Positions 2,954 to 25,691 of a stretch of DNA of 38,811 bases are shown here, one piece after another (within the stretch, counting starts at the first letter, position 1; each line of letters starts with the position of its first letter). Position numbers and translations under genes: made by a program. A model generated the notes under the pieces. The model ran no database searches. It saw only the letters and a program-made list of their open reading frames with translations, and was not told where the DNA came from. The DNA is from Balneolaceae bacterium (GTDB lineage Bacteria > Bacteroidota > Rhodothermia > Balneolales > Balneolaceae): contig JAFIFA010000017.1 in the NCBI GenBank assembly GCA_020832225.1, positions 1 to 38,811 of the forward strand, given 5' to 3'.

Positions 2954-2981
2954 GACGTGAGACGTGAGACGTGAGACGAGG
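2954..2981. repeat. Heptanucleotide array a: three perfect GACGTGA units plus one degenerate
   Basis: Units start at 2954, 2961 and 2968, followed by a decayed fourth at 2975. The TGAG core reads on the plus strand. It lies 28 bases upstream of the threonine aldolase start and faces array b in inverted orientation. Confidence 0.85.
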
Positions 2982-3018
2982 AATTTGGTTCATAACTTGA
3001 TTAGAACCCAATTCCCAA
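2981..3018. repeat. Imperfect inverted repeat between heptad arrays a and b
   Basis: GAATTTGGTTC (about 2980-2990) and GAACCCAATTC (about 3003-3013) are near-complements differing at one position around a 12-base loop. With arrays a and b outside them, this makes a larger fold-back of about 90 bases. Confidence 0.6.
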
Positions 3019-3019
3019 T

Positions 3020-3043
3020 CTCAAGACTCAAGACTCAAGACTT
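3020..3043. repeat. Heptanucleotide array b: three perfect CTCAAGA units
   Basis: Units start at 3020, 3027 and 3034. On the minus strand they read TCTTGAG. The stop codon of the dehydrogenase gene (complement of 3035-3037, TGA) falls inside the last unit, so the array begins exactly where the coding sequence ends. Confidence 0.85.
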
Positions 3044-3895
3044 ATATTCAAAAAATCCAACTCCTGTCTTGTCGCCGAGTTTTCCGGCATCAACCATCTT
3101 CACCAGAAGCGGACATGGTCGGTACTTTGGATCCTTGAACCCATCATAAAGCACATTCAGTATATCGAGGCAGACATCCAGACCGATAAAGTCGGCCAGG
3201 CGAAGTGGTCCCATCGGGTGGGCCATTCCAAGTTTCATCACCTCATCAACGTGTTTTGGCTCTGCAACGCCTTCATGCACACAGAAGATCGCCTCGTTGA
3301 TCATCGGCATCAGCACGCGGTTGGAGACAAACCCCGGAAAGTCGTTGGCCGGAACCGGTACTTTGCCCAGCTTCTCCGATAGTTTCATGACAGCATTTGT
3401 AACACTTTCATCGGTATCAAGCCCGTTGATCACCTCAACAAGCTTCATTACCGGAACAGGATTGAAGAAGTGCATTCCGATAAATTTCCCCGGCCTGCCG
3501 GTTACCGCCGCCAGTTTTGTAATCGATATAGAGGATGTATTGCTCGCAAGTATGGCGTGATCGGGCGCGTGCTTATCAACTTCCTCAAAAATCTTCTTTT
3601 TGAGCTCGAAATTCTCCGGTACTGCTTCAACAACCAAATCACAATCCAATACAGCACCGGGTATATTCAGATGCGGCTGAATGCGGTCCATGGCTGCAGC
3701 CTTATCAGCTTCAGTGATCTTCTCCTTTTTAACCATTCGGCTCAGGTTCTTATCGATGGTATTCATCGCCCGATCCGCAAACTCCTGCTTGGTCTCCACA
3801 AGTTTCACATCAAAACCGTTTTGTGCAAATACGTGCACAATTCCGTTACCCATTGTACCGCCACCGATGACGACCACTTTCTTTATTTCACTCAT
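3035..3895 (-). CDS. 3-hydroxyacyl-CoA (3-hydroxybutyryl-CoA) dehydrogenase
   Basis: NAD(P)-dependent oxidation of L-3-hydroxyacyl-CoA to 3-ketoacyl-CoA, or the reverse, in fatty-acid or short-chain acyl-CoA metabolism. The 286-residue length matches the single-function Hbd/PaaH type. The Rossmann fold opens with VVVIGGGTMGNGI (8-19). The catalytic His is His142 in MHFFNPVPVM, with its Glu partner at 154 (KLVE). The NDFPGFVSNR segment (184-193) supplies the conserved Asn192, and the C-terminal helical dimerisation domain is complete. Chain-length specificity cannot be told from sequence. The stop codon lies in a heptanucleotide repeat array. Confidence 0.93.
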   Translation of the reverse strand: MSEIKKVVVIGGGTMGNGIVHVFAQNGFDVKLVETKQEFADRAMNTIDKNLSRMVKKEKITEADKAAAMDRIQPHLNIPGAVLDCDLVVEAVPENFELKKKIFEEVDKHAPDHAILASNTSSISITKLAAVTGRPGKFIGMHFFNPVPVMKLVEVINGLDTDESVTNAVMKLSEKLGKVPVPANDFPGFVSNRVLMPMINEAIFCVHEGVAEPKHVDEVMKLGMAHPMGPLRLADFIGLDVCLDILNVLYDGFKDPKYRPCPLLVKMVDAGKLGDKTGVGFFEYKS

Positions 3896-4012
3896 TGTCT
3901 GGCTCCATTACGTTCATTATTTCAATCTTCATTTCATTCGGTTCAGAGAGTATGTATTTTGATTGGAATTTTCAATCTTTACAGCCACATATTTCGACTT
4001 TTAACCCCGCTG

Positions 4013-6457
4013 ATGAGTTCACTTCTAAGAATCGGACTATTCCTGCTTATACTGCTTACCGGATTAGCCGCTATCGGAATATACTGGACATTCTACAAAC
4101 CTCTGCCCAACTACAGCGGCACACTTGAGTTGGCTGAGCTGCAGAGTCCTGTTGATGTTCACTGGGATTCATATGGCGTACCCTATATCCACGCTCAGAG
4201 CGAGAATGATCTCTACTTTGCCGCCGGTTATGTTCATGCCCAAGAGCGAATCTGGCAGATGACCCTCTCCCAGCTATCGGCTGAAGGGCGCTTTTCGGAG
4301 TTTCTTGGAGAAGAACTGGTGGAACTCGATAAATTTCAGCGCACCCTTGGCTTCTGGGAGACCGCCAAAAGAATTGAGGAGGAGAGCTCAGCTGAGGTTC
4401 TGAATATCCTGCAGCGTTATGCTGATGGTGTGAACCGCTATGTGGAAGATAACCGGAAGAATCTACCCATTGAGTTCTCCCTAACCGATGTTAAACCGAT
4501 TGAGTGGACGCCTACACACACAATCGCACTGACCCGTTTGATGGCGTGGGACCAGAATATGCACTGGTGGAGCGAACTCTCTATCGCATACCTTGCCGAC
4601 ATTATTGAACCACAACGTCTTCAGGAGCTCATACCGGTCTACAACGACCGATACCCCACTCTGCTAAACGACAGTGAAAGCCGTGGTTTTGCATCATCCG
4701 CTCTGCCGCTTTTGGAGACCGACCTGAAGAGAAGGTCGATTCTCTCCCTGGAAGGGACACAGTTTGGGAGCAACGCATGGGCGTTAAGTGGTGAGAAAAC
4801 CGAGTCCGGCAGCCCGATACTAGCCGGTGATCCCCATATGGGCCTCACCATTCCCGGCTTCTGGTTTGAAGTTCACTACTCACTGCCCGGCCATCGGGTA
4901 ACCGGTGCAACCATTCCGGGGCTCCCCTTTGTTATTCTGGGCAAGAACAACAATGTGGCCTGGACCATCACCAATATGATGGCAGATGTGACCGACTTTT
5001 TTGTTGAAACCCCATCACCGGAAAACCCCAATCGCTACATCACGGACACAACATCCACTCCAGAAACTACGGAAGCTTTCGAGTTCCGGGATGAGATCAT
5101 TCAGGTGAAAGGCGGAGATGACCGGCTCTTTAGAATCAGATCCACCATTAACGGCCCCGTTATCAGCGATTTCCTAAATCACGACACATTTCCTGATGAC
5201 AAGGTGATCGCCCTCTCCTGGACCGGCAACCAGGTAAGTCATGAAACACTGGCGGGCTATCGGATGAACCGTGCCCGCAACATGGAGGAGTTTGAGGAAG
5301 CAATCTCCGGGTTTCGATCTCCCGCAATGAACTTTACCTATGCCGACCGATTCAACAATATCGCAATTTTCAGTGCCGCATCGATTCCGGTGCGTTCCGG
5401 TCAGCCACTGCTATTCCGTGATGGAAGCAACCCCGCCTCAGCCTGGCAGGGCACCCTTCGCCAGGATCAGCTCCCAAGGGTCGTAAATCCGGATAACAGT
5501 TTCGTGGCCCATGCCAATAATAAAATTCATACAGACGACTATCCGCACTATATCGGCTCATTCTGGGCTCCGCCATCACGAATCATGAGGATTACTCAAG
5601 TGCTTGAGGAGAGCGAAAATGTAACAACGGATGATGTTCGAACACTTCAGTTTGATCATTTTTCGGAGCATGCAAGAGAGATCACCGAAATGATTCTCCC
5701 GATGCTTCGCTCCGACTCCCCGTACGACTTCTCAACCGTTCTCCCCTATCTGGAGAATTGGGATTATCTCTACAACCCCTCCTCTACAGCCGCCACAATC
5801 TTCGATCTCTTTTTTCTGAATCTCTCCAGAAATGTTCTTGCAACTGAGATTGGTGAAGAAGCCTATCAATCCCTTGCATCACTTAGCTATGTACCGGTGC
5901 AGATTATCAGCCGCATGCTGGACCAGAACAGCCCCTACTTCAACAGAACCGAGTCACCGTTAAATGACGACCGTGCAATGGTGGTGCAGGAATCGATGCA
6001 GGAGACGGTTGAGCAACTCGGGGAGATGTTTGGCGATGAACCGATCAACTGGCGATGGGAAAATGTAAACACAATTACGCTTCGTCCACCCCTGCTTGGA
6101 GAAGCAGCAGCTGCACCGGAAGCTCCGGCTGTACTCAGAACCATTGTAAATAACCTCTTTAGCCGGGGGCCCTATCCCGTTCACGGTCATGCCCTTTCAG
6201 TAAACAAAGCTGAATATGGCTGGGATCGGCCATTTGAAGTTACGCTGGGCCCTTCAATTCGCCGAATTATTGATTTTTCATCACCGGGCAGGGCGTTGTC
6301 GATACTTCCAACCGGTCAGTCTGGAAATCCGATCAGCACCCATTACGGAGATCAGACCGATATGTGGCTCGACGGGCGGTACCGATTCATCTATCAGGAC
6401 AGCACCTTTTTCCAGCAGGCAAGTTACAGAACGATGCGGATGCTGCCCTCCGACTGA
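4013..6457 (+). CDS. Penicillin acylase family (S45) amidohydrolase, membrane-anchored precursor
   Basis: N-terminal nucleophile hydrolase made as one precursor that self-cleaves into alpha and beta chains. The 814-residue form starting at 4013 opens with one hydrophobic anchor (SSLLRIGLFLLILLTGLAAIGIYW), placing the enzyme in the periplasm. The alpha part has the family phrase VHWDSYGVPYIHA. The autocatalytic site is FGSNAWALSG, with Ser253 as the new N-terminal nucleophile. GKNNNVAWTITN carries the expected Asn for the oxyanion hole, and the C-terminal GQSGNP segment is typical. The frame is open upstream to 3470, but that stretch is antisense to the dehydrogenase gene and lacks family residues. 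The natural substrate is unknown: acyl-homoserine lactones, beta-lactams or other N-acyl compounds are possible. The next gene follows 107 bases downstream. Confidence 0.92.
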   Translation: MSSLLRIGLFLLILLTGLAAIGIYWTFYKPLPNYSGTLELAELQSPVDVHWDSYGVPYIHAQSENDLYFAAGYVHAQERIWQMTLSQLSAEGRFSEFLGEELVELDKFQRTLGFWETAKRIEEESSAEVLNILQRYADGVNRYVEDNRKNLPIEFSLTDVKPIEWTPTHTIALTRLMAWDQNMHWWSELSIAYLADIIEPQRLQELIPVYNDRYPTLLNDSESRGFASSALPLLETDLKRRSILSLEGTQFGSNAWALSGEKTESGSPILAGDPHMGLTIPGFWFEVHYSLPGHRVTGATIPGLPFVILGKNNNVAWTITNMMADVTDFFVETPSPENPNRYITDTTSTPETTEAFEFRDEIIQVKGGDDRLFRIRSTINGPVISDFLNHDTFPDDKVIALSWTGNQVSHETLAGYRMNRARNMEEFEEAISGFRSPAMNFTYADRFNNIAIFSAASIPVRSGQPLLFRDGSNPASAWQGTLRQDQLPRVVNPDNSFVAHANNKIHTDDYPHYIGSFWAPPSRIMRITQVLEESENVTTDDVRTLQFDHFSEHAREITEMILPMLRSDSPYDFSTVLPYLENWDYLYNPSSTAATIFDLFFLNLSRNVLATEIGEEAYQSLASLSYVPVQIISRMLDQNSPYFNRTESPLNDDRAMVVQESMQETVEQLGEMFGDEPINWRWENVNTITLRPPLLGEAAAAPEAPAVLRTIVNNLFSRGPYPVHGHALSVNKAEYGWDRPFEVTLGPSIRRIIDFSSPGRALSILPTGQSGNPISTHYGDQTDMWLDGRYRFIYQDSTFFQQASYRTMRMLPSD

Positions 6458-6564
6458 AATTGACAACACGATCTGATACCCGATTCCCGGATGATCTTTT
6501 ACTATCTTCCAACACGATTTCAACAACTGCTTCGTACTTAATTAAAAAAAAACGCCGTTATCGA

Positions 6565-9504
6565 ATGAAACTTCGTACAGCTCCATTATCCTTCGCTTTT
6601 GTTATTACCCTCATAACACTGTTGATGCTTTCAGCCTGCCGCACTACAGAACCTCCGGCAGAAGAGAGAAGACCCGGGCTTCCAACACCCCCGGCAGATG
6701 ATCGTGAACTCCGGACAGAACAGATCCCCTCTGATGTCGATATTGATTCTCTTCTTGCAGAAATGACGCTGGAAGAGAAAGTGGGACAGATCTTTGTTGT
6801 ACCCGCCTATGGCACCTTCAGAAACGACCGTGATCCTGATTACCTCCGTCTCAAACGTCTGATCCGCGACTATCATATCGGTGGACTTATTTTCATGAGC
6901 GGTGATATTTATGGTCAGGCCGTACTCACCAATCGTTATCAGGAGCAGTCTTCGGTTCCGCTCTGGATCAGTCAGGATATGGAGTTCGGTGCCGCTATGA
7001 GGGTTAGAGGTACAACACGAATTACACCGGCCATGGGAATTGCAGCAACGGGAGATCCACATAACGCATGGCTGAAAGGTAAAATCACGGCACGGGAAGC
7101 ATCTGCGCTGGGTGTACATCAGATCTTCGCGCCGGTTCTTGATGTCAATAACAATCCGGAAAATCCGGTGATTAATGTCCGCTCCTTCTCTGCATCTCCC
7201 CAAATGGTTGCCGAGTTTGGGATGCAAAAGGTGGAGGGAATTGAAAGTGAAGGCGTGCTTGCCACGGCGAAGCACTTTCCGGGCCATGGTGACACCGACA
7301 CAGACTCACACCTTGCCCTGCCAGTAATCAATCACGACTATGCACGCCTCGACTCACTGGAACTTCATCCATTCCGTGTCTCTGTGAGCAACGGGCTTCG
7401 AAGCGTGATGAGCGCCCATATTGCATTTCCCGCCATCAGCGAAAACATCGACATGCCGGCCACTCTCGATGCAAGTGTTTTGAACCGCGTATTGAGAGAC
7501 ACACTTGGCTTTGATGGGCTCATCGTGACAGACGGACTGAATATGCAGGGAATTACAGACACATTTTCACCGGGAGATGCGGTGATCCGGGCGCTCAATG
7601 CCGGTGCGGATATGATGCTGATGAGCCCTGATGAGATGACTGCTGTGAACGAGGTGATTCGCGCAGTTGAGAGCGGACGAATCAGCGAGGAACGGATTGA
7701 ACAATCTGCAAGAAAGATCCTTCAGCTGAAAAAAGAGCATGGTGTATTTGAAAACCACATGGTTGACCTGGACGCATTGGCCAACCGGATCAACACCCCC
7801 GACTATCAGACAATTGCTGAACGTATTGCACGCGAATCGGTAACCCTGCTTAAGAATGAGAACGATGTTCTCCCGATCCGTGAAGTGGATAACCTCAATA
7901 TTCTCGCAGTTGCCCTCGCCGACGACCGTTCCGGCTCAACAGGTTCCGGTTTTGCACGTGAGCTGCGCAACTATCACAGCAACGTCAATTTTCACGTTCT
8001 GGATCAGCGAACCAGTGAAGAGGAGAAAGAGCGAATCGTAACAGCCGCTGAGAATGCAGACCTGATTCTGATAGGTTCATTCATCATCGTGCGTTCGCAT
8101 CAACCAATGCAGGTACAGCCCGAACAGCTGGCCCTTCTCAGAAAACTCACCTCCATGGATAAACCCTCGGGTGTGATCGCTTTTGGAAACCCTTATGTGG
8201 TTCAGGATTTGCCCGATGCCGATGTCCATATGATGGCGTGGGCATCAACGGCCCATCAGATCAGCCAGACCGTACCGGCTCTCTTCGGGGCCTCAAAAAT
8301 CAGCGGAAAACTCCCTATCAATATTCCGGGGATGTATAAGATCGGAGACGGAATTGAGATCGATCAATCTGTGGTTCGTCTGGATCGCCCTGAGGCTGCA
8401 GGTCTATCAACCGACTCGCTTCTCCATATCGATATGATTATGCAGAAAGCGATCGACGATTCGGTATTTCCCGGCGGAGTTGTTGGCGTTATGCGAGACG
8501 GTGCCCTGGTTTGGCAAAATGGTTATGGATATCACGACTACACAAAGACCACACAGACAGCACCGAATACCGTTTTTGATCTCGCATCCATCACTAAAGC
8601 GATGGCAACTACTACGAGTATTATGAAACTGGTTGATGATGGAAGAATCTCCCTTGATGACCCCGTCTACCAATATATTGAGGAGTTTGACGAGGGAGAG
8701 AAGAGGGATGTCACCATACGCCATCTTCTGCTTCACACCTCCGGACTGGCAGCATTCAGGGTCTATGTGGATGAACTACAGACCCGGGATGAGATCGTTA
8801 AGGCTGTTCGCAATGAGCCCCTGGAAAACACCCCGGGTGAAGAGTATGTCTACAGCGACCTCGGATTTATTCTGCTCGGCGAGATCGTTCATGAGGTGAC
8901 GGGGACGCGCCTGGATCGCTTTGCGCGAAACCACTTCTTCTACCCAATGGGCCTCTCCTCCACCCACTTCAACCCGAAGCGTGTTGGCCGATGGGTAAGC
9001 AACCGCATTCCTCCCACTGAGATCGATGTCAGTTTCGACCGCGGTACGGTTCAGGGAGATGTACATGATGAGAGAGCCTTCTTCATGGATGGTGTTGCAG
9101 GGCATGCAGGTCTCTTCTCCACAGCCCGTGAGATCGCTTCCTGGAGCTATATGCTGCTCAATGGCGGCAAGTATGGGGGACATCAATATCTAAGCAGAGA
9201 AACCATCGATCTCTTTAGCGGACCGAGATCTCCGGTAAACCACCGCGGTTACGGTTTCGACAGGAAAAGCGGCAGTGCCAGCACAGCCGGGCAGCTAACC
9301 GGTGAACGAACCTTTGGGCATCTTGGGTTTACAGGTACAAGTGTCTGGATGGATCCAGACGAAAATATCGCCATCATTCTGCTAACGAACCGTACCTTCC
9401 CAAGTCGCGAGTATGGCAGTGATATAAGCCGGATCAGGGCGCGAATAGCAGATGCAGTAATGAACAGTATCGAAATACACTACAGCCAAACTGAAGAAGA
9501 GTAG
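6565..9504 (+). CDS. Lipoprotein fusing GH3 beta-N-acetylglucosaminidase with a beta-lactamase/esterase domain
   Basis: The 979-residue protein starts with a lipoprotein signal ending LMLSAC, so it is probably tethered to a membrane. The N-terminal half is glycoside hydrolase family 3 of the NagZ type: KHFPGHGDTDTDSH (His237 and His240 region) and the nucleophile Asp323 in GLIVTDGLNM. These enzymes remove N-acetylglucosamine from peptidoglycan fragments. After a GH3 C-terminal domain comes a serine-hydrolase domain of the class C beta-lactamase fold, with SxxK as Ser675-Ile-Thr-Lys678, a YSD motif in VYSDLGF and HLGFTG near the end. Such fusions are known in Bacteroidota. The combination suggests processing of both sugar and peptide or ester bonds of wall fragments. 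It heads a tight three-gene run: the next start is 7 bases after its stop. Confidence 0.93.
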   Translation: MKLRTAPLSFAFVITLITLLMLSACRTTEPPAEERRPGLPTPPADDRELRTEQIPSDVDIDSLLAEMTLEEKVGQIFVVPAYGTFRNDRDPDYLRLKRLIRDYHIGGLIFMSGDIYGQAVLTNRYQEQSSVPLWISQDMEFGAAMRVRGTTRITPAMGIAATGDPHNAWLKGKITAREASALGVHQIFAPVLDVNNNPENPVINVRSFSASPQMVAEFGMQKVEGIESEGVLATAKHFPGHGDTDTDSHLALPVINHDYARLDSLELHPFRVSVSNGLRSVMSAHIAFPAISENIDMPATLDASVLNRVLRDTLGFDGLIVTDGLNMQGITDTFSPGDAVIRALNAGADMMLMSPDEMTAVNEVIRAVESGRISEERIEQSARKILQLKKEHGVFENHMVDLDALANRINTPDYQTIAERIARESVTLLKNENDVLPIREVDNLNILAVALADDRSGSTGSGFARELRNYHSNVNFHVLDQRTSEEEKERIVTAAENADLILIGSFIIVRSHQPMQVQPEQLALLRKLTSMDKPSGVIAFGNPYVVQDLPDADVHMMAWASTAHQISQTVPALFGASKISGKLPINIPGMYKIGDGIEIDQSVVRLDRPEAAGLSTDSLLHIDMIMQKAIDDSVFPGGVVGVMRDGALVWQNGYGYHDYTKTTQTAPNTVFDLASITKAMATTTSIMKLVDDGRISLDDPVYQYIEEFDEGEKRDVTIRHLLLHTSGLAAFRVYVDELQTRDEIVKAVRNEPLENTPGEEYVYSDLGFILLGEIVHEVTGTRLDRFARNHFFYPMGLSSTHFNPKRVGRWVSNRIPPTEIDVSFDRGTVQGDVHDERAFFMDGVAGHAGLFSTAREIASWSYMLLNGGKYGGHQYLSRETIDLFSGPRSPVNHRGYGFDRKSGSASTAGQLTGERTFGHLGFTGTSVWMDPDENIAIILLTNRTFPSREYGSDISRIRARIADAVMNSIEIHYSQTEEE

Positions 9505-9511
9505 ATAGACC

Positions 9512-10198
9512 ATGGATCAATATGCACCATACTCTGACAGCAGAGAGACGTGCCTGGTGAGGGGAAAGTCGGGGATAATCTATCCCGGAGTGAGGGTGGA
9601 GAACATCTCCTATCCACTTACTATTACATCCATACAAGCCGCCGTCTGCAGCTGCCTCGCAAATGGTGATACACCGGAATCCTACTCAATCACCAACGGA
9701 TCACAAAGACCTGAACTGCTCTCTTTCTGGACAGCAACATTCAGCATGGAGGAGCGCGCGAGTTACGGTTCTGAAGAACCACGCTTTAACCCGCTCATCT
9801 CTATTGAATCCAATATCGGCGGGGAGCTGACTGACCTCTGCTCAAAAGCAGTCACCATTCACTCCGGATTTCCCGTCTCCTCACTTCTCAAGGTAGCCGA
9901 TGGGTATATACCCGGAGCCAATGTTGAGGTGGAGGCGTGGGCCCTTGGCTTGTGTGCAGAGAGGGTTTCCATTTCCAGGGCCATTGCTGCCGGTTACACT
10001 GAATTTGAGTCGATCCATGTCCATGCGCCAAAAAGCGATTTCAGCAGCCCGTGCGGCGCCTGCCGGCAAGTTTTGAACGAGTTCATGCCCACCGGAGTTG
10101 TTGAAATGCACCATGGAGACGGTTCACTATCCAAACATATCACTTCACACCTGTTGCCACACGGCTTTATCTCTGAGGAATTAACAAGGAAGATATGA
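9512..10198 (+). CDS. cdd: Cytidine deaminase with degenerate N-terminal and catalytic C-terminal domain
   Basis: Zinc enzyme converting cytidine or deoxycytidine to uridine in pyrimidine salvage. The 228-residue protein contains two related halves. Residues about 4-60 (YAPYS, then VENISYPLTITSIQAAV) match the family's substrate-binding region, but the catalytic CAE is replaced by TSI. Residues about 105-215 hold the active site: Cys148-Ala-Glu150 (GLCAER) and Cys181/Cys184 in SPCGACRQ. In E. coli CDA the catalytic half comes first and the degenerate half second; here the order is reversed. It lies 7 bases after the GH3 gene and overlaps the next gene by four bases (ATGA), so the three are probably one transcript. 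The call as a deaminase is firm; the exact nucleoside substrate is not. Confidence 0.85.
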   Translation: MDQYAPYSDSRETCLVRGKSGIIYPGVRVENISYPLTITSIQAAVCSCLANGDTPESYSITNGSQRPELLSFWTATFSMEERASYGSEEPRFNPLISIESNIGGELTDLCSKAVTIHSGFPVSSLLKVADGYIPGANVEVEAWALGLCAERVSISRAIAAGYTEFESIHVHAPKSDFSSPCGACRQVLNEFMPTGVVEMHHGDGSLSKHITSHLLPHGFISEELTRKI

Positions 10199-10812
10199 AT
10201 TTCATCGCAGTACTCGACTTTCAACACCTAGACAACGGTATTTTTCTAACCGCCTTCGCCCGCTCTCTTGCCAGACGCAAAAAAAGGGGCATCATCATTC
10301 ACAGCGATAGCGAATATACTGACCGTCTGATCCAGACAGGAATGATGCGGGAGGATGCCATGCGAAGATCCATCCGCGATCTGAATCACAGGCTGGTTGC
10401 ACTATTTGCCGATCAGGGGGTTCCAACCATCGCACTTAATGGCTATCAAAAAGCGATGGTTACAGCCGGCAACGGAACTACTCTTTCGATCAACAGAAAT
10501 GAGATCGACCGACTTCCCGAGCAGCCAATGCTTCTTTTATCCGGGCTTGCTCATTCACCGGACAGTAATCTCCCAACACCGGTGAGCCTGCCCGATTTTG
10601 CTTTTAGTCTTCAGCGAACATACTCTGTGGACGCCATTACGCTGTTCAGTACCAGTGAATCGTCTTCGATCATCAAATCGGACCTTCCAAAAAGAGTGGC
10701 TCTGGGTGACGCAGATTCTGATTTCCTTGAAGAGCATATCCCGGAAAGTTTTCACGGTAGAGATGAAACGGTAATTCTATCCACGGCAGACGCTTTTGGG
10801 AAAGATGAGTAA
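10195..10812 (+). CDS. Degenerate amino-acid-kinase-like protein of unknown function
   Basis: The 205-residue protein has no certain family. Residues about 35-85 (IIIHSD, then DLNHRLVALFADQGVPTIALNG) resemble the part of acetylglutamate or aspartate kinases running from the phosphate-binding strand to the helix before the substrate loop. The glycine-rich VHGGG is replaced by IHSDS. The protein is also shorter than a full kinase (about 260 residues), and I find no clear ATP-binding C-terminal part. It may therefore be a non-catalytic relative, or the likeness may be accidental. Its start overlaps the deaminase stop (ATGA), indicating translational coupling, and it closes the three-gene run. 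The next gene is convergent, 16 bases away. Confidence 0.55.
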   Translation: MNFIAVLDFQHLDNGIFLTAFARSLARRKKRGIIIHSDSEYTDRLIQTGMMREDAMRRSIRDLNHRLVALFADQGVPTIALNGYQKAMVTAGNGTTLSINRNEIDRLPEQPMLLLSGLAHSPDSNLPTPVSLPDFAFSLQRTYSVDAITLFSTSESSSIIKSDLPKRVALGDADSDFLEEHIPESFHGRDETVILSTADAFGKDE

Positions 10813-10828
10813 ATCCATCCCTGTATTT

Positions 10829-12669: not shown

Positions 12670-12695
12670 TCACTTTAATTCTTTTGGGGTTACGT

Positions 12696-17790: not shown

Positions 17791-17816
17791 CGTTAAAGAT
17801 TTTTAAGAGAGGTCGA

Positions 17817-19237: not shown

Positions 19238-19286
19238 GATCAACCTGAACTAACGAACCTTCACTTTAAAAAACTAACTCTGCGAT

Positions 19287-20531
19287 ATGAAAACGTTGAA
19301 AATCGGAATCATTGGATCAGGCTTTATAGCCAAATTTTTAGCCGTTGCAATGAAACAGGTACGGCACTGCGAAATATCAGCCATCTACAAGCGGGGCGGT
19401 GCTGATGAGCTTGCCGACATTGCCCGAAAAAACGGTCTTGGAGATCCAAAAATCTGTGACACCGTAGCTGAAGTCTGCAATCACAGTGATGCGGTAGCGA
19501 TCTACTCCCCCAACTACACACGTCTTGCGATCATGGAGGAGATTGCCGATGCAGTTCAAAAAGGAGCCAAACTTACCGGTGTGATCTGTGAAAAGCCGTT
19601 GGGGCGAACGATGGCCGAATCACGCAGAATGGTGGAACTGGCCCGCGGCGCCAATCTGCTCACCGCCTACTTTGAAAATCAGCTCCACATGAATGCCATC
19701 AACAATGCACTCGTACAGCTTCGTCCGCAGCAGGAAGCGATGGGGAATTTCACTTTGGCCCGAAGTACCGAGGAGCATGCAGGGCCACACAACAGCTGGT
19801 TCTGGGATCCTTCAAAACAGGGTGGCGGCGTGCTGTCCGACATGGGTTGCCACAGTATCGCCATCTGCCGGCACATCCTTACCCCTCCCGGCAAGTCGCC
19901 CACATTCCTGGAGCCGGTAGCTATGCAGTGCGACACCTCCCTTCTGAAATGGGGTCAGCCGAAGTACCGCGAACAGCTCAAAGAGCGCTATGGTGTAGAC
20001 TACTCCAAAACACCGGCTGAAGATTTTGCAACGGGGATTATCACGTTCAGAAATCCTGAAACAGGTCAGCTGGTTAAGGGGCAATTTACCGACTCCTGGA
20101 TGTATGACAAGCAGGGACTTCGTCTCTCCATGGATGGACTTGGCCCCGGTTATGCCATGGAGGTGAACACGCTGATCTCCCCTCTCGAAATTTTTATTGG
20201 TGATGAAGCCGCCGCCGGTGCTGCCGATGCGGAAACCGCACTTGAGAAATCGACCGCTTCCCGTGGTTTACTCGCCGTGCAGCCCAACGAAGCCCACCTC
20301 TACGGATATGTAACCGAAACCGAGGATATGGTAAACAGCTTTCTGAATGGCGAAGACGCGATGCTCGATTGGGAGTTCGGGGTTGAAGTGACGTTTATGG
20401 TTCAGGCTGCATATATGGCTGCCGAGCAGAGAAAGACGATCGATCTGACAGACTCAGGCGTGAAAAAGGAGTTGGAAAGCTACCGTTCACTCATTTCCCA
20501 GGGAAAGGGAGCTGAGGTGCTTTTTTCTTAA
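19287..20531 (+). CDS. Gfo/Idh/MocA family NAD(P)-dependent oxidoreductase
   Basis: The 414-residue protein has an N-terminal Rossmann domain opening with KIGIIGSGFIAKF (residues 5-17) and the family lysine in VICEKPLGRTMAE. The C-terminal alpha/beta substrate domain includes FWDPSKQGGGVLSDMGCHSIAICRHI, where a conserved His near the DMGCH segment normally helps hydride transfer. These enzymes oxidise or reduce sugars, inositols or related alcohols in the cytoplasm. The substrate is not deducible. No signal peptide is present. It lies 49 bases after the duplicated secreted protein and ends before a probable bidirectional terminator/repeat at 20548-20615. Confidence 0.9.
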   Translation: MKTLKIGIIGSGFIAKFLAVAMKQVRHCEISAIYKRGGADELADIARKNGLGDPKICDTVAEVCNHSDAVAIYSPNYTRLAIMEEIADAVQKGAKLTGVICEKPLGRTMAESRRMVELARGANLLTAYFENQLHMNAINNALVQLRPQQEAMGNFTLARSTEEHAGPHNSWFWDPSKQGGGVLSDMGCHSIAICRHILTPPGKSPTFLEPVAMQCDTSLLKWGQPKYREQLKERYGVDYSKTPAEDFATGIITFRNPETGQLVKGQFTDSWMYDKQGLRLSMDGLGPGYAMEVNTLISPLEIFIGDEAAAGAADAETALEKSTASRGLLAVQPNEAHLYGYVTETEDMVNSFLNGEDAMLDWEFGVEVTFMVQAAYMAAEQRKTIDLTDSGVKKELESYRSLISQGKGAEVLFS

Positions 20532-20547
20532 AAAGGCCAAACCTTTT

Positions 20548-20615
20548 TTAACCACCATGATCACAAAGGTTTTTCACGAAGAGCACAAATATAACTTTGT
20601 GCTTTTTGTGGTTAA
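20548..20615. repeat. Palindromic intergenic repeat with CTTTGTG core, possible bidirectional terminator
   Basis: The inner stem AGCACAAA (20582-20589) pairs with TTTGTGCT (20596-20603) over a 6-base loop. The outer stem TTAACCAC (20548-20555) pairs with GTGGTTAA (20608-20615). T-rich stretches follow on both strands. It lies between two convergent genes, consistent with termination. From memory, CACAAAG / CTTTGTGGTTAA palindromes recur between genes in several Gram-negative phyla; I could not check this. Confidence 0.7.
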
Positions 20616-20687
20616 AGCTTCTCGATTCATAGATTTATCCCGCAACTTAAGTGAAGCATGCCATATTTCGCTTCGAATCACGTCTGT

Positions 20688-20729
20688 CTCACGACTCATG
20701 ACTCACGACTCACTACTCAACCCTACTCA
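20688..20729. repeat. Heptanucleotide array c, running into the 3' end of a coding sequence
   Basis: Five phased units start at 20688 (CTCACGA, CTCATGA, CTCACGA, CTCACTA, CTCAACC); a further CTCA follows at 20726. On the minus strand these read TGAGNNN. The stop codon of the 260-residue gene is at 20713-20715 (complement TAG), and its last codons (MSRVE) are themselves repeat sequence. Confidence 0.85.
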
Positions 20730-21495
20730 TCGCCGCTTCAGACAATAATCGAATTGTATTGGACTCATGCGGGGTGACCCGGATCGCATAGTGGCTTGAA
20801 CTGTTTGAACTTTCATCACTCGATCCCGCAATAGAACCGATAATTGTAAGGGTGGAATCAGTGATGGAATCCTCAATCCTGAAGCTAAATTCGCTGTTCT
20901 CATCCCATGTTTTCAAATCGGTAAGGCGAATCTCCCGTGATGTCGCTTCGCCAGGAATATCGATAAAGCTGCCGTTACCGCCGCCATAATCATGAGGCAT
21001 CAACATCTTTTCTGCTGCGGCAAATCCATGAATCATCAGCTGGCTGCGAAGCTGATCTCTTAGCACGTTTTCTTCTATCTGTCTATTTTCAGCAAAATAG
21101 CTGGTGGCCATCAGGGCTGAATTAAACAGTGCAAAACCCAGGGAACTGACAAGCAATATAGCACCCAAATACCAAACCAATGATCTCTTGAGAAGAGTTT
21201 CCTCGCGTATCGCACGGTATCCTTTCACCAGCAGAAACGGCGTTAAGGCCAGTACAACGATTAGACCGATGATGGCAGTTAGTCCCGTCTGCATAAAAGG
21301 CTCTAGTGTAAAAGTGCCCCCACCGAACACCGTAATTGCATGTACGGTAGTGTATTGAAGCAGTGGCATTGCCGGGGCGTATATGGCATACGCTAAAGCA
21401 TACATGCCTGATGTATGTTTTGGAATAAAGATAAGAATGGCTGCGATCAACGCAACGATCATCCAGGGCAAGAACGGTTCAATTTTCTCTTTCAT
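20713..21495 (-). CDS. Membrane protein of unknown function with possible pilin-like C-terminal domain
   Basis: 260 residues. The first about 145 contain four likely membrane helices: WMIVALIAAILIFIP, MYALAYAIYAPAMPLL, TAIIGLIVVLALTPFLLV and LVWYLGAILLVSSLGFALF. The remaining soluble part has a helix (LRSQLMIHGFAAAEKMLMP), a GGGNGSF turn, and strands with FSFRIEDSITDSTLTIIG and HYAIRVTPHE. From memory, the helix plus GGG-GSF plus strands resembles a pilin-like domain seen in Bacteroidota-group proteins, but here it follows several membrane helices instead of a type IV prepilin leader, so the likeness is tentative. It overlaps the upstream gene by 17 bases, so translation is probably coupled. 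Its last codons come from repeat array c. Confidence 0.6.
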   Translation of the reverse strand: MKEKIEPFLPWMIVALIAAILIFIPKHTSGMYALAYAIYAPAMPLLQYTTVHAITVFGGGTFTLEPFMQTGLTAIIGLIVVLALTPFLLVKGYRAIREETLLKRSLVWYLGAILLVSSLGFALFNSALMATSYFAENRQIEENVLRDQLRSQLMIHGFAAAEKMLMPHDYGGGNGSFIDIPGEATSREIRLTDLKTWDENSEFSFRIEDSITDSTLTIIGSIAGSSDESSNSSSHYAIRVTPHESNTIRLLSEAAMSRVE

Positions 21496-22144
21496 AATCG
21501 ATGCCTCCGCTGGTTAAAGTGGCTCTAACCTGGAGTTTGCCGGTTTCTCCGTTTAGGTTTGCAAAGTCGGGATCGGCACCATTGGAAATAGCTGCTATAG
21601 CTGTGAGCCTCACCGTATCCGCACCCGCTACATCGTATATATATAGAATAGGAGGATCCTCAGCAGCATCCATTTGAGCCAGGGATTTGGTGATGAATCG
21701 TCCATCCTCGCCGATGCGATCACTATTCAGCTCTTCAAATATCGACGCCATTGTAACTTCCCCATCCCGGTCTGTTTCCAGGTGATAGTGACGGAAGGTG
21801 ACGAGAAGTGCGTTTTTCATATCGCTTTGAATCACGCCGCTGTCAATGGTCTGTCGGATGTCGGAAAGCAGTTTTTTTTGCCTATCTGCTTTGGCATACA
21901 TGATTAAGGCCATGAAGAGTTGTGCAACCACCAGGCAGCCTACCAAACTGCGAATAACGACTTTCGCGCCGGGCAGTTCCATGGTTTGAACCATCCGTTT
22001 ATCTAACAGGTACAGGTAGATGAGTGCAACGACAAACGCGGAAAAAAATCCAATCCAAAGATCCTGAAAAAGGTAAGAGAGACTGAATGCCGTCAACATT
22101 CCCCCGATCCCGCCGGCCAGCAAGAAGATGTTTTTATCTTTCAT
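21479..22144 (-). CDS. Membrane protein of unknown function, partner of the 260-residue protein
   Basis: 221 residues; no family recognised. Two N-terminal hydrophobic helices (IFLLAGGIGGMLTAFSLSYLF and LWIGFFSAFVVALIYLYLL) and a third (VIRSLVGCLVVAQLFMALIMY) are followed by a soluble domain from about residue 85. That domain opens with a helix (KLLSDIRQTIDSGVIQSDMKNALLVTFRHYH) and continues into beta-rich sequence (ILYIYDVAGADTVRLTAIAAIS, LQVRATLTSGG). The architecture parallels its downstream neighbour: several helices, then a helix leading into a strand-rich domain. The stop overlaps the next gene's start by 17 bases, pointing to a two-component membrane assembly. Function unknown. Confidence 0.6.
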   Translation of the reverse strand: MKDKNIFLLAGGIGGMLTAFSLSYLFQDLWIGFFSAFVVALIYLYLLDKRMVQTMELPGAKVVIRSLVGCLVVAQLFMALIMYAKADRQKKLLSDIRQTIDSGVIQSDMKNALLVTFRHYHLETDRDGEVTMASIFEELNSDRIGEDGRFITKSLAQMDAAEDPPILYIYDVAGADTVRLTAIAAISNGADPDFANLNGETGKLQVRATLTSGGIDYEREN

Positions 22145-22288
22145 ATAGCTGTTGTTGATGATTTTTAGGTATTTAAGGAATTCCCCGGAGATATTCCATT
22201 AGAGCTAGGGGCAAATTTGGGTTGGAGATGTGCTGCGCCTTGGGCGCAGTCGGGAAGTCCTGAGAATTAGTGGCTATATTTTTTATTT

Positions 22289-22329
22289 ACTCAATCTATT
22301 GAGTCAATCTACTCAGTAAAATGAGTAGA
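22289..22329. repeat. Two adjacent palindromes upstream of the ATPase remnant
   Basis: ACTCAAT-CT-ATTGAGT (22289-22304) is directly followed by TCTACTCA-GTAAAA-TGAGTAGA (22308-22329). Both are perfect. They end two bases before the ATG of the ATPase remnant, so they may be its old operator or leader. Confidence 0.75.
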
Positions 22330-22330
22330 C

Positions 22331-22431
22331 ATGGAAACATTTGAGAGATTTCATTTACAGATTCTGAAAGAACGCATTGAAAATGAACCCTAAAGTTCAT
22401 GCAGGTAATCTATGGACCGCGTCAGGTTGAT
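22331..22431 (+). pseudogene. 5' remnant of an AAA ATPase of the DUF4143 type, frameshifted and truncated
   Basis: Reading from ATG 22331 gives 20 codons, METFERFHLQILKERIENEP, then a stop. Shifting frame at 22393 continues as KFMQVIYGPRQV, the family's run-up to the Walker A motif (normally followed by GKTT). The homology ends at 22428, just before the phosphate-binding lysine. Intact members are about 370-420 residues with an N-terminal ATPase and C-terminal DUF4143, and are common accessory genes of uncertain role. Here at least one frameshift and loss of more than 90% of the gene show it is dead. Confidence 0.7.
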
Positions 22432-22568
22432 GAGTTCAGATCTGACAGCATTCCCGGCAGGTTTCAGGAGTTGAATGTTGAATGTTCAACCATGTATCCT
22501 GCGCCTTTCGAGAAGCTGCAAATCCAGAAAGGCTAACAACCAAATGCTTGAAGGTTTTCACCCGTACC

Positions 22569-22596
22569 CTGAGCCTTGAGCCTTGTACCTTGCACC
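22569..22596. repeat. Heptanucleotide array d at the stop codon of the SWIM-like gene
   Basis: Four phased units: CTGAGCC, TTGAGCC, TTGTACC, TTGCACC (starts 22569, 22576, 22583, 22590). The stop codon of the 569-residue gene occupies 22596-22598, so the array abuts it. Upstream is GCTTGAAGGTTTT (from 22547), also present beside array f. Confidence 0.82.
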
Positions 22597-24305
22597 TACC
22601 GGTTCCATTTTTCAAACTCTTCAAGCAGTGCCGGGCGGTTTGAATAGAGATCGCATAAGGAGTCTGATAATTTTACGGCTTGCTCTTCTGCCCCCAGTGT
22701 ATAGAGATATTTCAGTTCCTTACACATTTTCCGGTAACGCGTTCGGCCGGTATTCTGCTCCAAATAGTTTCGGATAAGCGTTTCGTATAGGTCAAAAATT
22801 TCATCCAAAGCCGTTTCGGTAAAAAATCGGTCGTATCGTTTCAGGGTATAGAAGTCTGGATACTTCTTCAGGTACTCCAGAAGCTGATCCCACATTTTTT
22901 CATGCACATATATTTCAGCCAGCAGTGTTAACCCGCGGTAATTGGAGCTGAGGTTGGGAATCAGGTTTTCGCGCAGATAGCTTGCCCAGCGATCCTCCGG
23001 CCACGTCTCTTTAAGTTTTGTATAGGTTTCCATTGTAGGTTCATTAAATAGAAGTGCTTCCAGTAATTTTTGCACGTCACCGTCGCTTTCATTGGTTTGG
23101 TGAACTTTTATCAGCCACTTCTGCCAACCGGGAATTAGACCGGGTGCCGATTTGCCAAGAGATTTAATCGCATCTTCAGCGAGCGTTTTTACAGTTTCCG
23201 GTTCTCCCCTGTCCCATGCTGTTTGAATCATCTGCTCCCGAACACCAGTTAGCATCTTGAACTTGTTCAGTAAAGCATCCGCTTCCTTTTCCCGGCTAAA
23301 TTTTCTTAAAAGCCGGGCTTTCTGCAATACCGATTTTTCAAGCCGGTAATTGGAACTCCAATCATCTTTAGTTTTTGATGATTCTTCAATACGCTTGTCC
23401 AACAGATCTTCCATTTTATCGGCCTGTTTTCCGGCATTGGCCAGGTTGACGCCCATCACAATAAAATCACCCGGAAAGTCCCAGCCTTCATATCGTTTAT
23501 CATCGATCGATTTGATACACCAATTGAAAAACTGTTTCTGCTCTTTGTTCTCAAATTCTTGGCCGGCCAAATCGTGCAAAAGATTAATGGCCCAGCGGAC
23601 GGCATCCCCTACATCCGCGCTCGAATCATCTATAAACTGAAAAGCGGGCACCATCTCTTCAACCACTGTCTGGCTGATGGCAATAGCCGTTTCATGTGAT
23701 CCCGATTGATTCAATTCATCTGCACGTTCCAATAGTTCGTACACCGGGGGCAGCATTCGCCTCGCTTCGTTTGAAAAGACAATCCCCTTGCGGCGGGCCG
23801 GAGCCAGAGCTGATTTAATCAGTTTGCGAAATTGCGGTTTACCGGAGCCGGGTTCAGTTGGAGTCATAAAAGAGAGAAATTGATTTTTGAAATTGGGATC
23901 GTTCGCAGCCATTATCCGGATAAACTCTGCCAGCACATCTTTTCCGGAGCGATTCAGAATTTCATCAAAGTGATCTGCAGGGTTTGACGAATAGGACTTT
24001 GCTTCCGCTTCCTGCACACCACGGATGCCGGATTCATCCTCAAGGGCCATCATCACGGCGGAAATGTGTTTATAGGGAGCATCATACGCATACGGGCAAG
24101 TGCATCGGCAGTTGAACCAACCGCTGTCAGTGGGTTTTAGGGTAATAAGATACGTTTCGGTTCCCTCCACCTCGGCAATCCAGGTGCCGTTATCAGACTG
24201 CGCAAGATTACGGATCGCCCCGGATGAATAATATGAGGCTCCACGCTCCATGATTACCGATGGAAAGTAGATCTCAGGTTCCTCAGGATCGATGAAGAAG
24301 CTCAT
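22596..24305 (-). CDS. SWIM-like zinc-finger protein with an altered third ligand
   Basis: 569 residues. The N-terminal part (10-85) has the SWIM layout: a beta region (RGASYYSSGAIRNLAQSDNGTWIAEVEGTETY), then the metal-site segment CRCTCPYAYDAPYKH. The expected ligands CxC...CxH correspond to Cys68, Cys70, Tyr78 and His80, so the third Cys has become Tyr (codon TAT at 24072-24074; one base from TGT). Cys66 might compensate. The remainder is a long helical repeat region (about 130-560) of the kind found in SWIM proteins linked to SNF2-type helicases, but no helicase lies nearby. The DNA- or protein-binding role is inferred from the family. It is divergent from the UPF0158 gene with 105 bases between them. 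Confidence 0.75.
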   Translation of the reverse strand: MSFFIDPEEPEIYFPSVIMERGASYYSSGAIRNLAQSDNGTWIAEVEGTETYLITLKPTDSGWFNCRCTCPYAYDAPYKHISAVMMALEDESGIRGVQEAEAKSYSSNPADHFDEILNRSGKDVLAEFIRIMAANDPNFKNQFLSFMTPTEPGSGKPQFRKLIKSALAPARRKGIVFSNEARRMLPPVYELLERADELNQSGSHETAIAISQTVVEEMVPAFQFIDDSSADVGDAVRWAINLLHDLAGQEFENKEQKQFFNWCIKSIDDKRYEGWDFPGDFIVMGVNLANAGKQADKMEDLLDKRIEESSKTKDDWSSNYRLEKSVLQKARLLRKFSREKEADALLNKFKMLTGVREQMIQTAWDRGEPETVKTLAEDAIKSLGKSAPGLIPGWQKWLIKVHQTNESDGDVQKLLEALLFNEPTMETYTKLKETWPEDRWASYLRENLIPNLSSNYRGLTLLAEIYVHEKMWDQLLEYLKKYPDFYTLKRYDRFFTETALDEIFDLYETLIRNYLEQNTGRTRYRKMCKELKYLYTLGAEEQAVKLSDSLCDLYSNRPALLEEFEKWNR

Positions 24306-24410
24306 GGTATATGCTGATGCAGAGTAAAAAATTCATTGAAACTGTGAGAAATCAAACTATCAATTTTATAACTTAAAACCCGAAACCGTTGAATTAAATG
24401 GAGAATACCA

Positions 24411-24905
24411 ATGTCCTTACCCGTATCCCTGCAGGAAGTTATCGATGAAATGGGCCAGCAAAATGAGTTGATCACGGCGTTCATCAACCGGAAAACCGGT
24501 GAACTGAGGATCCTCACCGAAGACGATTACTACGCTTTGCGGCACCTGGATGATGGCGAGCCGATTGAAGACCTCCCGCCCTGGCAGCAGGAGACTATAC
24601 CTATACTTCGCGAAACGGACGAGTCGGACGATTTTATCCCGCTCCCCTCCAAGTTCGAGATTCACGAATACCAAATTATGGAAGATTTTATACGGTCTCT
24701 GGATGACGGGGCGATAAAAGATGATTTGTTTAACGCCATTCGCGGACGCGGTGCATTCCGGTATTTTAAAGACAAGGTATTTGATTATGGCATCCGAAAT
24801 GATTGGTTCAGCTTTAAAAACCAGGTGATGAAGAAAATTGCCGCTGACTTTCTTGATTCGGAAGGGATTGCGTACAAAGATGATTTAAGAGAGCAAAAGA
24901 AATGA
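24411..24905 (+). CDS. UPF0158 family protein
   Basis: Cytoplasmic protein of 164 residues belonging to a family without an assigned function. Recognisable parts are an N-terminal segment (residues about 20-45, TAFINRKTGELRILTEDD) and the central signature FIPLPSKFEIHEYQIMEDFI (about 75-94). This is followed by the conserved IRGRGAFRYFKDKVFDYGIRNDWFSFKNQ (about 110-138), which is the hallmark of the family. The protein is acidic, with no signal peptide or membrane helix. It ends in a TGA followed after seven bases by heptad array e, and the DUF4926/DUF6883 pair converges on it. Confidence 0.85.
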   Translation: MSLPVSLQEVIDEMGQQNELITAFINRKTGELRILTEDDYYALRHLDDGEPIEDLPPWQQETIPILRETDESDDFIPLPSKFEIHEYQIMEDFIRSLDDGAIKDDLFNAIRGRGAFRYFKDKVFDYGIRNDWFSFKNQVMKKIAADFLDSEGIAYKDDLREQKK

Positions 24906-24912
24906 GATGAAT

Positions 24913-24933
24913 CTTGAGTCCTGAGTCTTGAGA
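24913..24933. repeat. Heptanucleotide array e just after the UPF0158 stop
   Basis: Units CTTGAGT, CCTGAGT, CTTGAGA (starts 24913, 24920, 24927), flanked on both sides by ATGAGAT-like half units. It begins 8 bases after the TGA stop (24903-24905). Confidence 0.8.
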
Positions 24934-24950
24934 TGAGATTAAGAGATCAT

Positions 24951-25193
24951 TTATGCAGATTCAATTTTTCGAACATTAAGCATATCGTTCTCATTGAGAT
25001 GCTCAATTTCAGACTCCTTAACTGTTAAAACGGTAATTGTATCACCAACTGCATTGAATACTTCCAGGGTATATCCAAACTCTTCCTTGACCGGATCGTG
25101 ACGGTCTACTACCGTTGCCAAATCACCTTTCCGAAGGTGTTTTTCCTTAAAATCTCTTAGCAATACAACTTCTGAGTAAAGTTCAAACTTCAT
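24951..25193 (-). CDS. DUF4926 domain protein
   Basis: The 80-residue protein has the small beta-barrel-like DUF4926 pattern: FELYSEVVLLRDF ... HLRKGDLATVVDRHD ... GYTLEVFNAVGDTITVLTVKESEIEHL. No signal peptide or membrane helix. It starts 4 bases after the stop of the DUF6883 gene, so the two are almost certainly one operon. I recall DUF4926 and DUF6883 genes lying next to each other in other bacteria, notably cyanobacteria, and the size and layout are those of a toxin-antitoxin-like pair, but no activity is known to me. The gene is more A+T-rich than its surroundings, consistent with transfer. Confidence 0.8.
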   Translation of the reverse strand: MKFELYSEVVLLRDFKEKHLRKGDLATVVDRHDPVKEEFGYTLEVFNAVGDTITVLTVKESEIEHLNENDMLNVRKIESA

Positions 25194-25197
25194 GTTT

Positions 25198-25494
25198 TTA
25201 TGATTTAGCCGGATACATAGTTATGAACCTGTAATTTTCAAATTTGTAGTCATTCATCCAAATTGACTTTACAGATAATGATTTACCATTGGGTCCAATT
25301 AAGACTCCCTTAGACTCAAATAATTCCCCAAACTGTGTAATTTCAATTAATTCTGCATTAGTAGGCAATAATTGTATCCTGATATCCCTTTTAAGGATCT
25401 GCCAATTCTCTTTAGAGTATCCCGCCAAACCCAAGCCATTTGGATTTATCATTTCGCGGTCTGTACGAGAGCAGATAATGTTCAATCTTTTCAT
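25198..25494 (-). CDS. DUF6883 domain protein
   Basis: 98 residues from the ATG at 25494 (an in-frame TTG lies two codons upstream). The order of elements matches DUF6883: a helix GYSKENWQILKRDIRIQLL, then strands with GVLIGPNGKSLSVKSIWMND and FENYRFITMYP at the C-terminus. That corresponds to the family's R/K-S/T-x-W-I and RLVT-x-YP blocks. The family occurs alone and, as I recall, as a terminal domain in some polymorphic toxins; enzymatic activity is not established. The first half is short here and lacks the usual HP-GKHKA-type helix, so it may be a divergent or trimmed member. First gene of a two-gene operon with DUF4926. Visibly A+T-rich. Confidence 0.7.
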   Translation of the reverse strand: MKRLNIICSRTDREMINPNGLGLAGYSKENWQILKRDIRIQLLPTNAELIEITQFGELFESKGVLIGPNGKSLSVKSIWMNDYKFENYRFITMYPAKS

Positions 25495-25499
25495 CCTCA

Positions 25500-25523
25500 A
25501 TTATACAAGATCGAGAAATTCTC
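25500..25523 (-). promoter_or_regulatory. Possible promoter with overlapping palindrome for the DUF6883/DUF4926 operon
   Basis: On the minus strand a TATAAT hexamer (25500-25505) lies 5 bases before the ATG at 25494, which would imply a leaderless or nearly leaderless transcript. Immediately upstream is the 11-base palindrome GAGAA-A-TTCTC (25513-25523). No good -35 is visible. Autoregulation through the palindrome is speculation. Confidence 0.3.
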
Positions 25524-25607
25524 ATAGGAAGTAATCAATTGTTATATCTTTTTTGAATGATAATATTAGTCTTATGCATTGAGTCCCGTCCCTGTCCCAA
25601 ACGCTTC

Positions 25608-25646
25608 AAGGATCCCGGAAAAGCCCGGGAACGCTTGAAGGTTTTA
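25608..25646. repeat. Imperfect hairpin between the DUF6883 operon and the S9 peptidase gene
   Basis: CTTCAAG-GA-TCCCGG-AAAAGC-CCGGGA-ACG-CTTGAAG folds back with an inner 6-bp and an outer 7-bp stem. Its right arm GCTTGAAGGTTTT recurs at about 22547 next to array d. Confidence 0.65.
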
Positions 25647-25656
25647 ATCTTTCGCC

Positions 25657-25691
25657 CTGCTGCCTGAGACTTGCACCCTGAGCCCTGCTAC
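25657..25691. repeat. Heptanucleotide array f across the stop of the S9 peptidase gene
   Basis: Five phased units: CTGCTGC, CTGAGAC, TTGCACC, CTGAGCC, CTGCTAC (starts 25657, 25664, 25671, 25678, 25685). The peptidase stop codon (complement of 25688-25690, TAG) is inside the last unit. Confidence 0.8.

Follow-up and report, generated by a model that had tools for sequence, protein, structure and literature searches.

The DNA analysed here, called the window below, is a stretch of 38,811 nucleotides that corresponds to contig 91 in the draft genome of a soda-lake Balneolaceae bacterium (genome G000; 3.37 Mb in 231 contigs, 96% complete). Balneolaceae MAGs are its closest named relatives in the genome collection, and one genome of the same genus, G007, matched PWWL01000330 (isolate CSSed11_50) at 100% over 3.9 kb. 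Genes were called with our own codon-usage script, of which the stops are reliable and the starts less so; the script missed ORF 9512-10198, which is probably real. A preliminary description of the window had reported short seven-base arrays on or within 8 bases of the stop codons of five genes. These arrays proved to be real. Four overlap a stop and one begins 6 bp after a stop; Tandem Repeats Finder detected most of them.

At the dehydrogenase gene two arrays face each other. The left arm (2934..2978, G-rich on the plus strand) is a stretch of AGTGAAA heptamers followed by an AGACGTG/TGAGACG array, and was found by a looser scan and by Tandem Repeats Finder (2953-2978, AGACGTG, 100%). The right arm (3020..3042, minus strand; CTCAAGA, sense TGAGTCT; Tandem Repeats Finder, 100%) overlaps the dehydrogenase stop at 3035-3037, the TGA of which lies within the array. 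Together with the gap between them, the two arms are predicted to fold into a hairpin (2930..3045, minus strand) of -37.2 kcal/mol (z -5.76), which none of 200 shuffles equalled. An array of CTCACGA (sense TGAGTCG) at 20688..20719 on the minus strand (Tandem Repeats Finder, 88%; looser scan) lies on the stop 20713-20715 of ORF 20713-21495. The same convergent gap holds an imperfect long hairpin at 20548-20618, TTAACCACC...GTGGTTAA with GCACAAA/TTTGTGC (DNA fold z -3.2). The array CCTTGAG/CCTTGTA/CCTTGCA at 22567..22597 (Tandem Repeats Finder 22570-22585 as TGAGCCT; looser scan) overlaps the stop 22596-22598 of ORF 22596-24305; it is G-rich on the minus strand and carries TGAG on the plus strand. 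It shares its gap with a short GTTGAAT stretch, which had been noticed before and was recovered at 22470..22486 on the plus strand by Tandem Repeats Finder and the looser scan. Two neighbouring small palindromes, ACTCAATCTATTGAGT and TACTCAGTAAAATGAGTA (22284-22330, z -4.5), were observed in the gap following ORF 21479-22144.

The array TCTTGAGTCCTGAGTCTTGAG (24912..24932, plus strand), found by the looser scan only, sits in a 45 bp convergent gap, 6 bp past the stop of a UPF0158 gene (24903-24905). At the stop of an S9 peptidase gene (25688-25690), degenerate heptamers with a CYTG core were read by eye as five 7-base units (25657..25690, minus strand). This stretch fails every threshold used and is graded weak. 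A hairpin, CTTCAAGG..CCCGG..CCGGG..CTTGAAG (25596-25645, z -3.9), adjoins it. Among the gene names first given, 3-hydroxyacyl-CoA dehydrogenase, UPF0158 and S9 peptidase were recovered by Pfam, while the "membrane protein" and the "SWIM-like" protein had no Pfam match at E<=0.001.

RNA folding gave z below -4 in two of seven cases, both of them facing pairs. For the remaining facing pair (L089) and the window's four single arrays, folding was no better than in shuffles. One hairpin or terminator family was rejected on this count (two of seven cases, none of the four single window arrays), and the arrays as a class do not provide the stable hairpin of an intrinsic terminator.

Period, unit sequence and abundance

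The pattern TGAGNNNTGAGNNNTGAG, that is TGAGNNN three times, has 77 + 96 matches in the 3.37 Mb genome, with about 0.4 expected arithmetically from its 12 fixed bases. As a control, the pattern was searched backwards, which gave 41 + 47 matches; this number is high because period-7 runs of GAGT match the pattern as well. TGAGNNN x3 was present in all 28 genus genomes searched. Of 148 genomes sampled from the phylum, 79 had it, 42 of these with at least five matches. Among the matches listed, the preferred unit varies by genome, being TGAGTAT in G003 and TGAGACC in G001.

Period 7 was then considered independently of the unit. A scan with mismatches allowed, run on 520 kb picked by contig number together with the window, gave 23 arrays of period 7 and at most six for any one period other than multiples of 7. 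Noncoding DNA was examined in stretches of 794 kb from G000, 400 kb from G003, 200 kb from G001 and 200 kb from G024, which contained 56, 88, 13 and 0 arrays of period 7, respectively. Period 8 was the runner-up and forms a minor second class in noncoding DNA, with 11 arrays in G000 (794 kb) and 23 in G003 (400 kb). Stretches L070-L090 and parts of the G003 and G001 stretches were picked for containing matches, so that densities per kb are biased there.

The units include TGAGTCT, TGAGTCG, TGAGACG, TGAGCTT, TGAAAAG, GGCAGAA, AAAAGGC, GTCAGTG and CAGGGTT, among more. The copies had been regarded as independent because they differ in detail, and the differing units bear this out. TGAGNNN as a shared template has to be given up, because units such as GGCAGAA, GTCAGTG, ACAGTAG, AAAAGGC and TGAAAAG are placed alike; strand polarity is the constant feature. 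A single free position, TGAGTCN, fits the TGAGTCG and TGAGTCC arrays and the TGAGTCT arrays less well. The consensus TAACTGA was found in none of the G000 arrays. In stretch L240 of G003 (263-416), TGAGTAT units switch to CAGGGTT with the 7-base register kept. In L221 of G008, after HisE, a facing pair was seen by eye to have a GAGA/CTC core that is constant per 7-base unit, the other bases being free.

Placement and polarity at gene edges

In the 794 kb of G000, 55 of 57 arrays are intergenic. For the distance test each array was removed and relocated to random points of its own gap in 20000 simulations; 51 arrays lay between two called genes and six were left out for not doing so. Twenty of the 51 lie no more than 8 bp from a stop (3.96 expected), and no simulation exceeded 11. 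The enrichment at stops that had been suspected from the window is thus present in the sampled part of the genome, and it extends to two further species (G003, 20/86 with 4.3 expected; G001, 6/13 with 1.4 expected). Within 8 bp of starts there were six of the 51 G000 arrays (3.1 expected, P 0.05), seven of 86 in G003 (2.3 expected) and one of 13 in G001 (0.8 expected). Arrays at start edges, with mirror polarity, and arrays inside gaps are covered neither by an element targeted to 3' ends nor by a 3'-end RNA signal, the two interpretations offered at first. Overall, the preliminary interpretation is partly supported.

To call polarity free of any motif, arrays were oriented by their G and C content alone, and those within 15 bp of a gene were taken as edge arrays. 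In G000, G003 and G001 the G-rich strand runs 5' to 3' away from the flanking gene in 77 of 79 edge arrays, namely in 34/34 at the left and 43/45 at the right edge of the gap. At stop edges polarity is outward in 60 of 61 arrays, compared with 234 of 507 array-free gaps, which have no bias. At start edges it is outward in 17 of 18; these are the weaker evidence, because array-free start edges already lean likewise (447/628). The rule is followed by the window's three strictly detected edge arrays and, by a reading of their composition, also by the arrays at 24912 and 25657. Those at 22567 and 25657 fit although their TGAG is on the opposite strand. Within a single gap, neighbouring arrays were arranged 32 times as '><', twice as '<>' and seven times each as '>>' and '<<' in the three genomes.

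With G018 added and distances taken from the nearer gap edge, outward polarity at stops was found in 30/30 overlapping arrays, 32/33 at 1-15 bp, 7/9 at 16-50 bp, 9/16 at 51-120 bp and 2/9 beyond. The corresponding values at starts were 2/2, 17/18, 5/5, 12/13 and 11/16. For the interior arrays of G000 polarity was not clear; by gap half, 11 pointed outward, 11 inward and one was a tie. The two ends of an array also differ. Read on the G-rich strand, the 5' end is sharper than the 3' end, with a next-unit match of 0.45 versus 0.54 in edge arrays (n=87, P 0.005) and of 0.46 versus 0.54 in interior arrays (n=77, P 0.0015). As judged by eye, the first TGAG is frequently preceded on its 5' side by an NTAGNNN unit, also away from stops. 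Arrays per stop edge in convergent versus tandem gaps numbered 10/152 versus 13/295 in G000, 18/96 versus 13/158 in G003 and 3/42 versus 5/78 in G001. In five G000 stretches (L085, L080, L073, L071, L089), arrays were seen by eye to follow directly on gene-side T/A runs, some of which resemble terminator tails.

Stop codon usage differs at the arrays. TAA was used at only 2 of 63 stops with an array within 15 bp (G000 1/23, G003 0/32, G001 1/8), compared with 436 of 976 other stops (G000 227/554, G003 122/283, G001 87/139). The stop was TGA or TAG in the remaining 61 of 63. From this near absence of TAA it follows that the array often supplies the stop codon.

Orthologous stops and sister genomes

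The dehydrogenase in the window ends in GFFEYKS. Among 23 relatives read to a stop, 13 end in GFF(K/T)Y or GFFKYD; the dehydrogenases of other relatives end one to three residues further, without an array (G010: GFFEYKN). Because of these later, array-free ends, the dehydrogenase alone is no proof that a native stop was overwritten. Its fourfold sites are near saturation against G000 (G007 0.43, G003 0.34, the rest 0.24 to 0.41). In G007, G003 and G008 its stop is followed by TGAG-type units; the units there are shorter or mixed in G009, G018 and G015.

Orthologs of five further G000 genes with an array at the stop were sought in six genomes and scored uniformly by counting matches at lag 7 close to the stop (maximum 16). 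For an ETF-QO-type gene the scores were 16 in G003 (GTCAGTG), 16 in G015 (GGCAGAA), 12 in G007, 11 in G009 and 8 in G018. HisE scored 13 in G003 and in G018, 12 in G008, 8 in G007 and 7 in G015. For OsmC, CMD and HemE every ortholog scored 9 or less. As a control, six array-free genes were drawn at random from 41 conserved ones. Among the 26 orthologs found for the six array genes, 7 scored at least 13, compared with 1 of 27 among the control orthologs (Fisher P 0.02); two control rows are the same region (L318/L334), so that 1/27 is 1/25 distinct. One control gene, c3, scores 12/16 in G000 itself. The data support the view that arrays are kept at orthologous stops while their units change, and three of the six tested genes carry this result. 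A reciprocal-best-hit 2x2 test was biased, as some G003 stretches had been picked around known orthologs, and was not relied on.

Two sister genomes, G009 and G018 (95% identity over 2.4 kb at the dehydrogenase), were compared gap by gap. The gap that precedes the ETF-QO-type gene has 99% identical flanks and a '><' frame in both genomes, but its units differ and its inner DNA could not be aligned. Another facing-pair gap (L277/L295) likewise differs between them. In L284/L294 the array is identical and the DNA after the array is altered, and the dehydrogenase arrays differ by a 10-base step. Of 38 comparable gaps, the three with arrays score 0.61, 0.61 and 1.00 and the 35 without score 0.07 to 1.00 (P 0.42), so gap turnover is not confined to gaps with detected arrays; some low identities reflect differences in gene-start calling, as L301 4613 and L304 12115 align nearly perfectly. 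REP-like elements, CCCCCTT...AAGGGGG, were seen to be gained or lost in gaps between the sister genomes (L300/L309, L304/L312, L222/L217).

Related repeats and the origin of the arrays

Dispersed short tandem repeats of cyanobacteria, the STRR, are heptamers. No paper was found by searching the literature for heptameric repeats in Bacteroidetes or for 7-bp repeats located downstream of stops. The closest description is that of the GGGAATC and GGGGA(C/T)T heptamers of Xanthomonas and Nostoc (Rehm et al. 2015, PMC4692102). According to the available text, these occupy the coding strand when within 50 bp of a stop, which they may overlap, and the non-coding strand when upstream of a gene; they are closer to the 5' neighbour and form convergent inverted pairs. 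They occur mostly between the same genes in two species, with varying length and sequence, and form quadruplexes in vitro; the authors identified no role. The Balneolaceae arrays share with them the period, the intergenic location (55/57), the G-rich strand being sense near stops (60/61) and antisense upstream of genes (17/18), and the convergent pairs (32 '><', 2 '<>'). Placement and polarity are therefore already known for GGGAATC-type units. The units described there have GGG quadruplex tracts, whereas those found here are varied and mostly lack G tracts (four GGG tracts in 8/151 arrays). Here, moreover, the unit is swapped between relatives at one stop, and array-made stop codons, frequent here, are not reported in the available text of that paper.

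The TAACTGA heptamers of Beggiatoaceae, Cyanobacteria and a few Bacteroidetes (MacGregor 2015, PMC4679880) are likewise dispersed intergenic direct repeats with a stop codon on one strand; as far as that text was available, they differ by 7 nt steps between Cyanothece strains, and a set in Flexibacter litoralis directly follows a stop codon. They have one fixed unit, in contrast to the many units here, and in the main species lie mostly just upstream of start codons, compared with 6/51 arrays at starts and 20/51 at stops in G000. Geobacter metallireducens has multicopy tandem heptanucleotides, with four units of the GGACCGG type or five MTYCTGA units, which were read as sites for regulation or protein binding (PMC2700814). 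Those form families of alignable copies, also within genes, and stop placement is not described in the text available. What appears new, as far as the literature found reaches, is that the polarity rule holds whatever the unit, mostly with units lacking G tracts, that the array often supplies the stop codon, and that units are swapped at one stop and an array-framed gap differs between sisters.

How might such arrays arise? We tentatively favour the possibility that the gap-edge heptamers are local, directional seven-base arrays that arise in gene gaps and grow back to the gene edge. Repeats would be written 5' to 3' on the G-rich strand starting at a boundary with older sequence, through slippage of the polymerase or end extension during repair of gap DNA. 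Repeated rounds would replace the adjoining gap sequence up to the last bases that selection retains, be they the last codons, a terminator or a start region, and two facing ends of growth would leave the '><' frame. The array itself would need no function. This reading, the mechanism of which we infer, is preferred for accounting jointly for polarity, stop overlap and facing pairs. It is favoured by the motif-free edge polarity (77/79; at stops 60/61 versus the unbiased 234/507 in array-free gaps), by the 32/33 at 1-15 bp past the stop, where an array is not needed as stop, by '><' exceeding '<>' (32 versus 2), and by the scarcity of TAA at array stops (2/63 versus 436/976). The sharper 5' end, interior arrays included, the exchange of units at one stop beyond near-saturated fourfold sites, and the differing facing-pair gap between 99% identical flanks in G009 and G018 argue the same way. 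Counted against growth towards gene edges are the turnover of array-free gaps (3 versus 35, P 0.42), the interior G000 arrays without clear polarity (11 versus 11, one tie), site retention resting on three of six genes, the fact that selection on a signal would yield much of the pattern, and the outcome of the search for an engine. Ku was found in none of the 28 genus genomes, with a control search finding it in Bacillus subtilis, and Ku-type end joining was rejected as the resident engine. RVT_1 was found in 9 of 28 genus genomes and not in G000, G003 or G001; a miss is possible in G000, which is 96% complete. It was not found in array-rich G000, G003, G006 and G016; array-rich G004, G007, G015 and G026 have it, and so do array-poor genomes. 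This pattern gives no tie to array number, so an RVT_1 enzyme was likewise rejected as the resident engine; its not being found in array-rich G000 and G003 leaves a resident telomerase-like reverse transcriptase unsupported. Such an enzyme, DRT10, does write short tandem DNA repeats in bacteria (PMC12632851, preprint), but in the text available it makes protein-primed cDNA for phage defence and not chromosomal arrays.

Rho prefers C-rich, G-poor RNA. A serious rival, which we hold to be somewhat unlikely, is a boundary signal under selection, in which C-rich, G-poor RNA transcribed into a gene from the gap (CTCANNN and the like) would load Rho or another RNA-binding factor and halt both read-in and antisense transcription. 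Pairs that face each other would act both ways, and units may vary while composition persists. Such selection would suit the edge polarity, the higher frequency of arrays at the stop edges of convergent gaps, compared with tandem ones, in all three genomes, and the unit changes at one and the same stop. It leaves the takeover of the stop codon itself unexplained, and the mirror polarity at start edges would place the C-rich stretch in the gene's own leader. Unlikely as well is ordinary slippage without direction or function, by which repeats would form in every gap and persist where they do no harm; TGA or TAG on the G-rich strand would be tolerable at gene ends, and G-rich leaders would be selected against at starts. 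The use of TGA or TAG at 61/63 array stops and the lean of array-free start edges (447/628) are in line with it, as are the stop-codon argument made for TAACTGA repeats (MacGregor 2015, PMC4679880) and the idea of polymerase slippage for period 7 cited by Rehm et al. (PMC4692102), both from the text available. Polarity persists past the stop codon (32/33), however, the 5' end is sharper in interior arrays too, and facing pairs prevail by 32 to 2. Stop-codon supply as the whole cause of polarity was rejected, the rule holding also 1-15 bp after the stop.

We consider it quite unlikely that the arrays are telomere-like scars, in which broken 3' ends in gaps would be extended by a seven-base G-rich repeat writer and joined head to head. 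Outward arrays and facing pairs would then be as in telomere fusions, the unit would drift with a change of template or seed, and selection on the gene would set where the array starts. A mobile element, with heptamer arrays as inverted ends and stop codons or TAG as preferred target, is very unlikely. The facing pairs and the common NTAG first unit at the 5' boundary, away from stops too, would fit it, but the interiors of 42 facing pairs from the looser scan had no common inner sequence, only scattered partial matches to other repeats, and no single family. Their lengths run from 7 to 1348 bases, and units differ between arms and between loci. No clean empty site turned up at which a target duplication could be compared. 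A single insertion element or MITE with a common core was rejected on account of these interiors. Least credible are G-quadruplex elements, with which placement, polarity and facing pairs would agree as described for Xanthomonas and Nostoc (available text of PMC4692102). Four GGG tracts occur in only 8 of 151 arrays and four GG tracts in 36, and TGAGTCT and TGAGACG lack any run of G. Quadruplexes were rejected as a general reason, and could still apply to the few arrays with G tracts.

In the literature found, heptamers were handled motif by motif and explained by motif-based ideas such as quadruplexes or binding sites. The motif-free polarity in three genomes, together with its match to the description from Xanthomonas and Nostoc, suggests that the cause does not lie in the motif. 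If telomere-like scars were the correct reading, the common rule in Balneolaceae and the published Xanthomonas and Nostoc cases would reflect one widespread repair activity. For annotators, stop codons at array sites call for caution, being often made by the repeat. The polarity rule itself points to directional repeat writing in gene gaps, or to a boundary signal based on composition.
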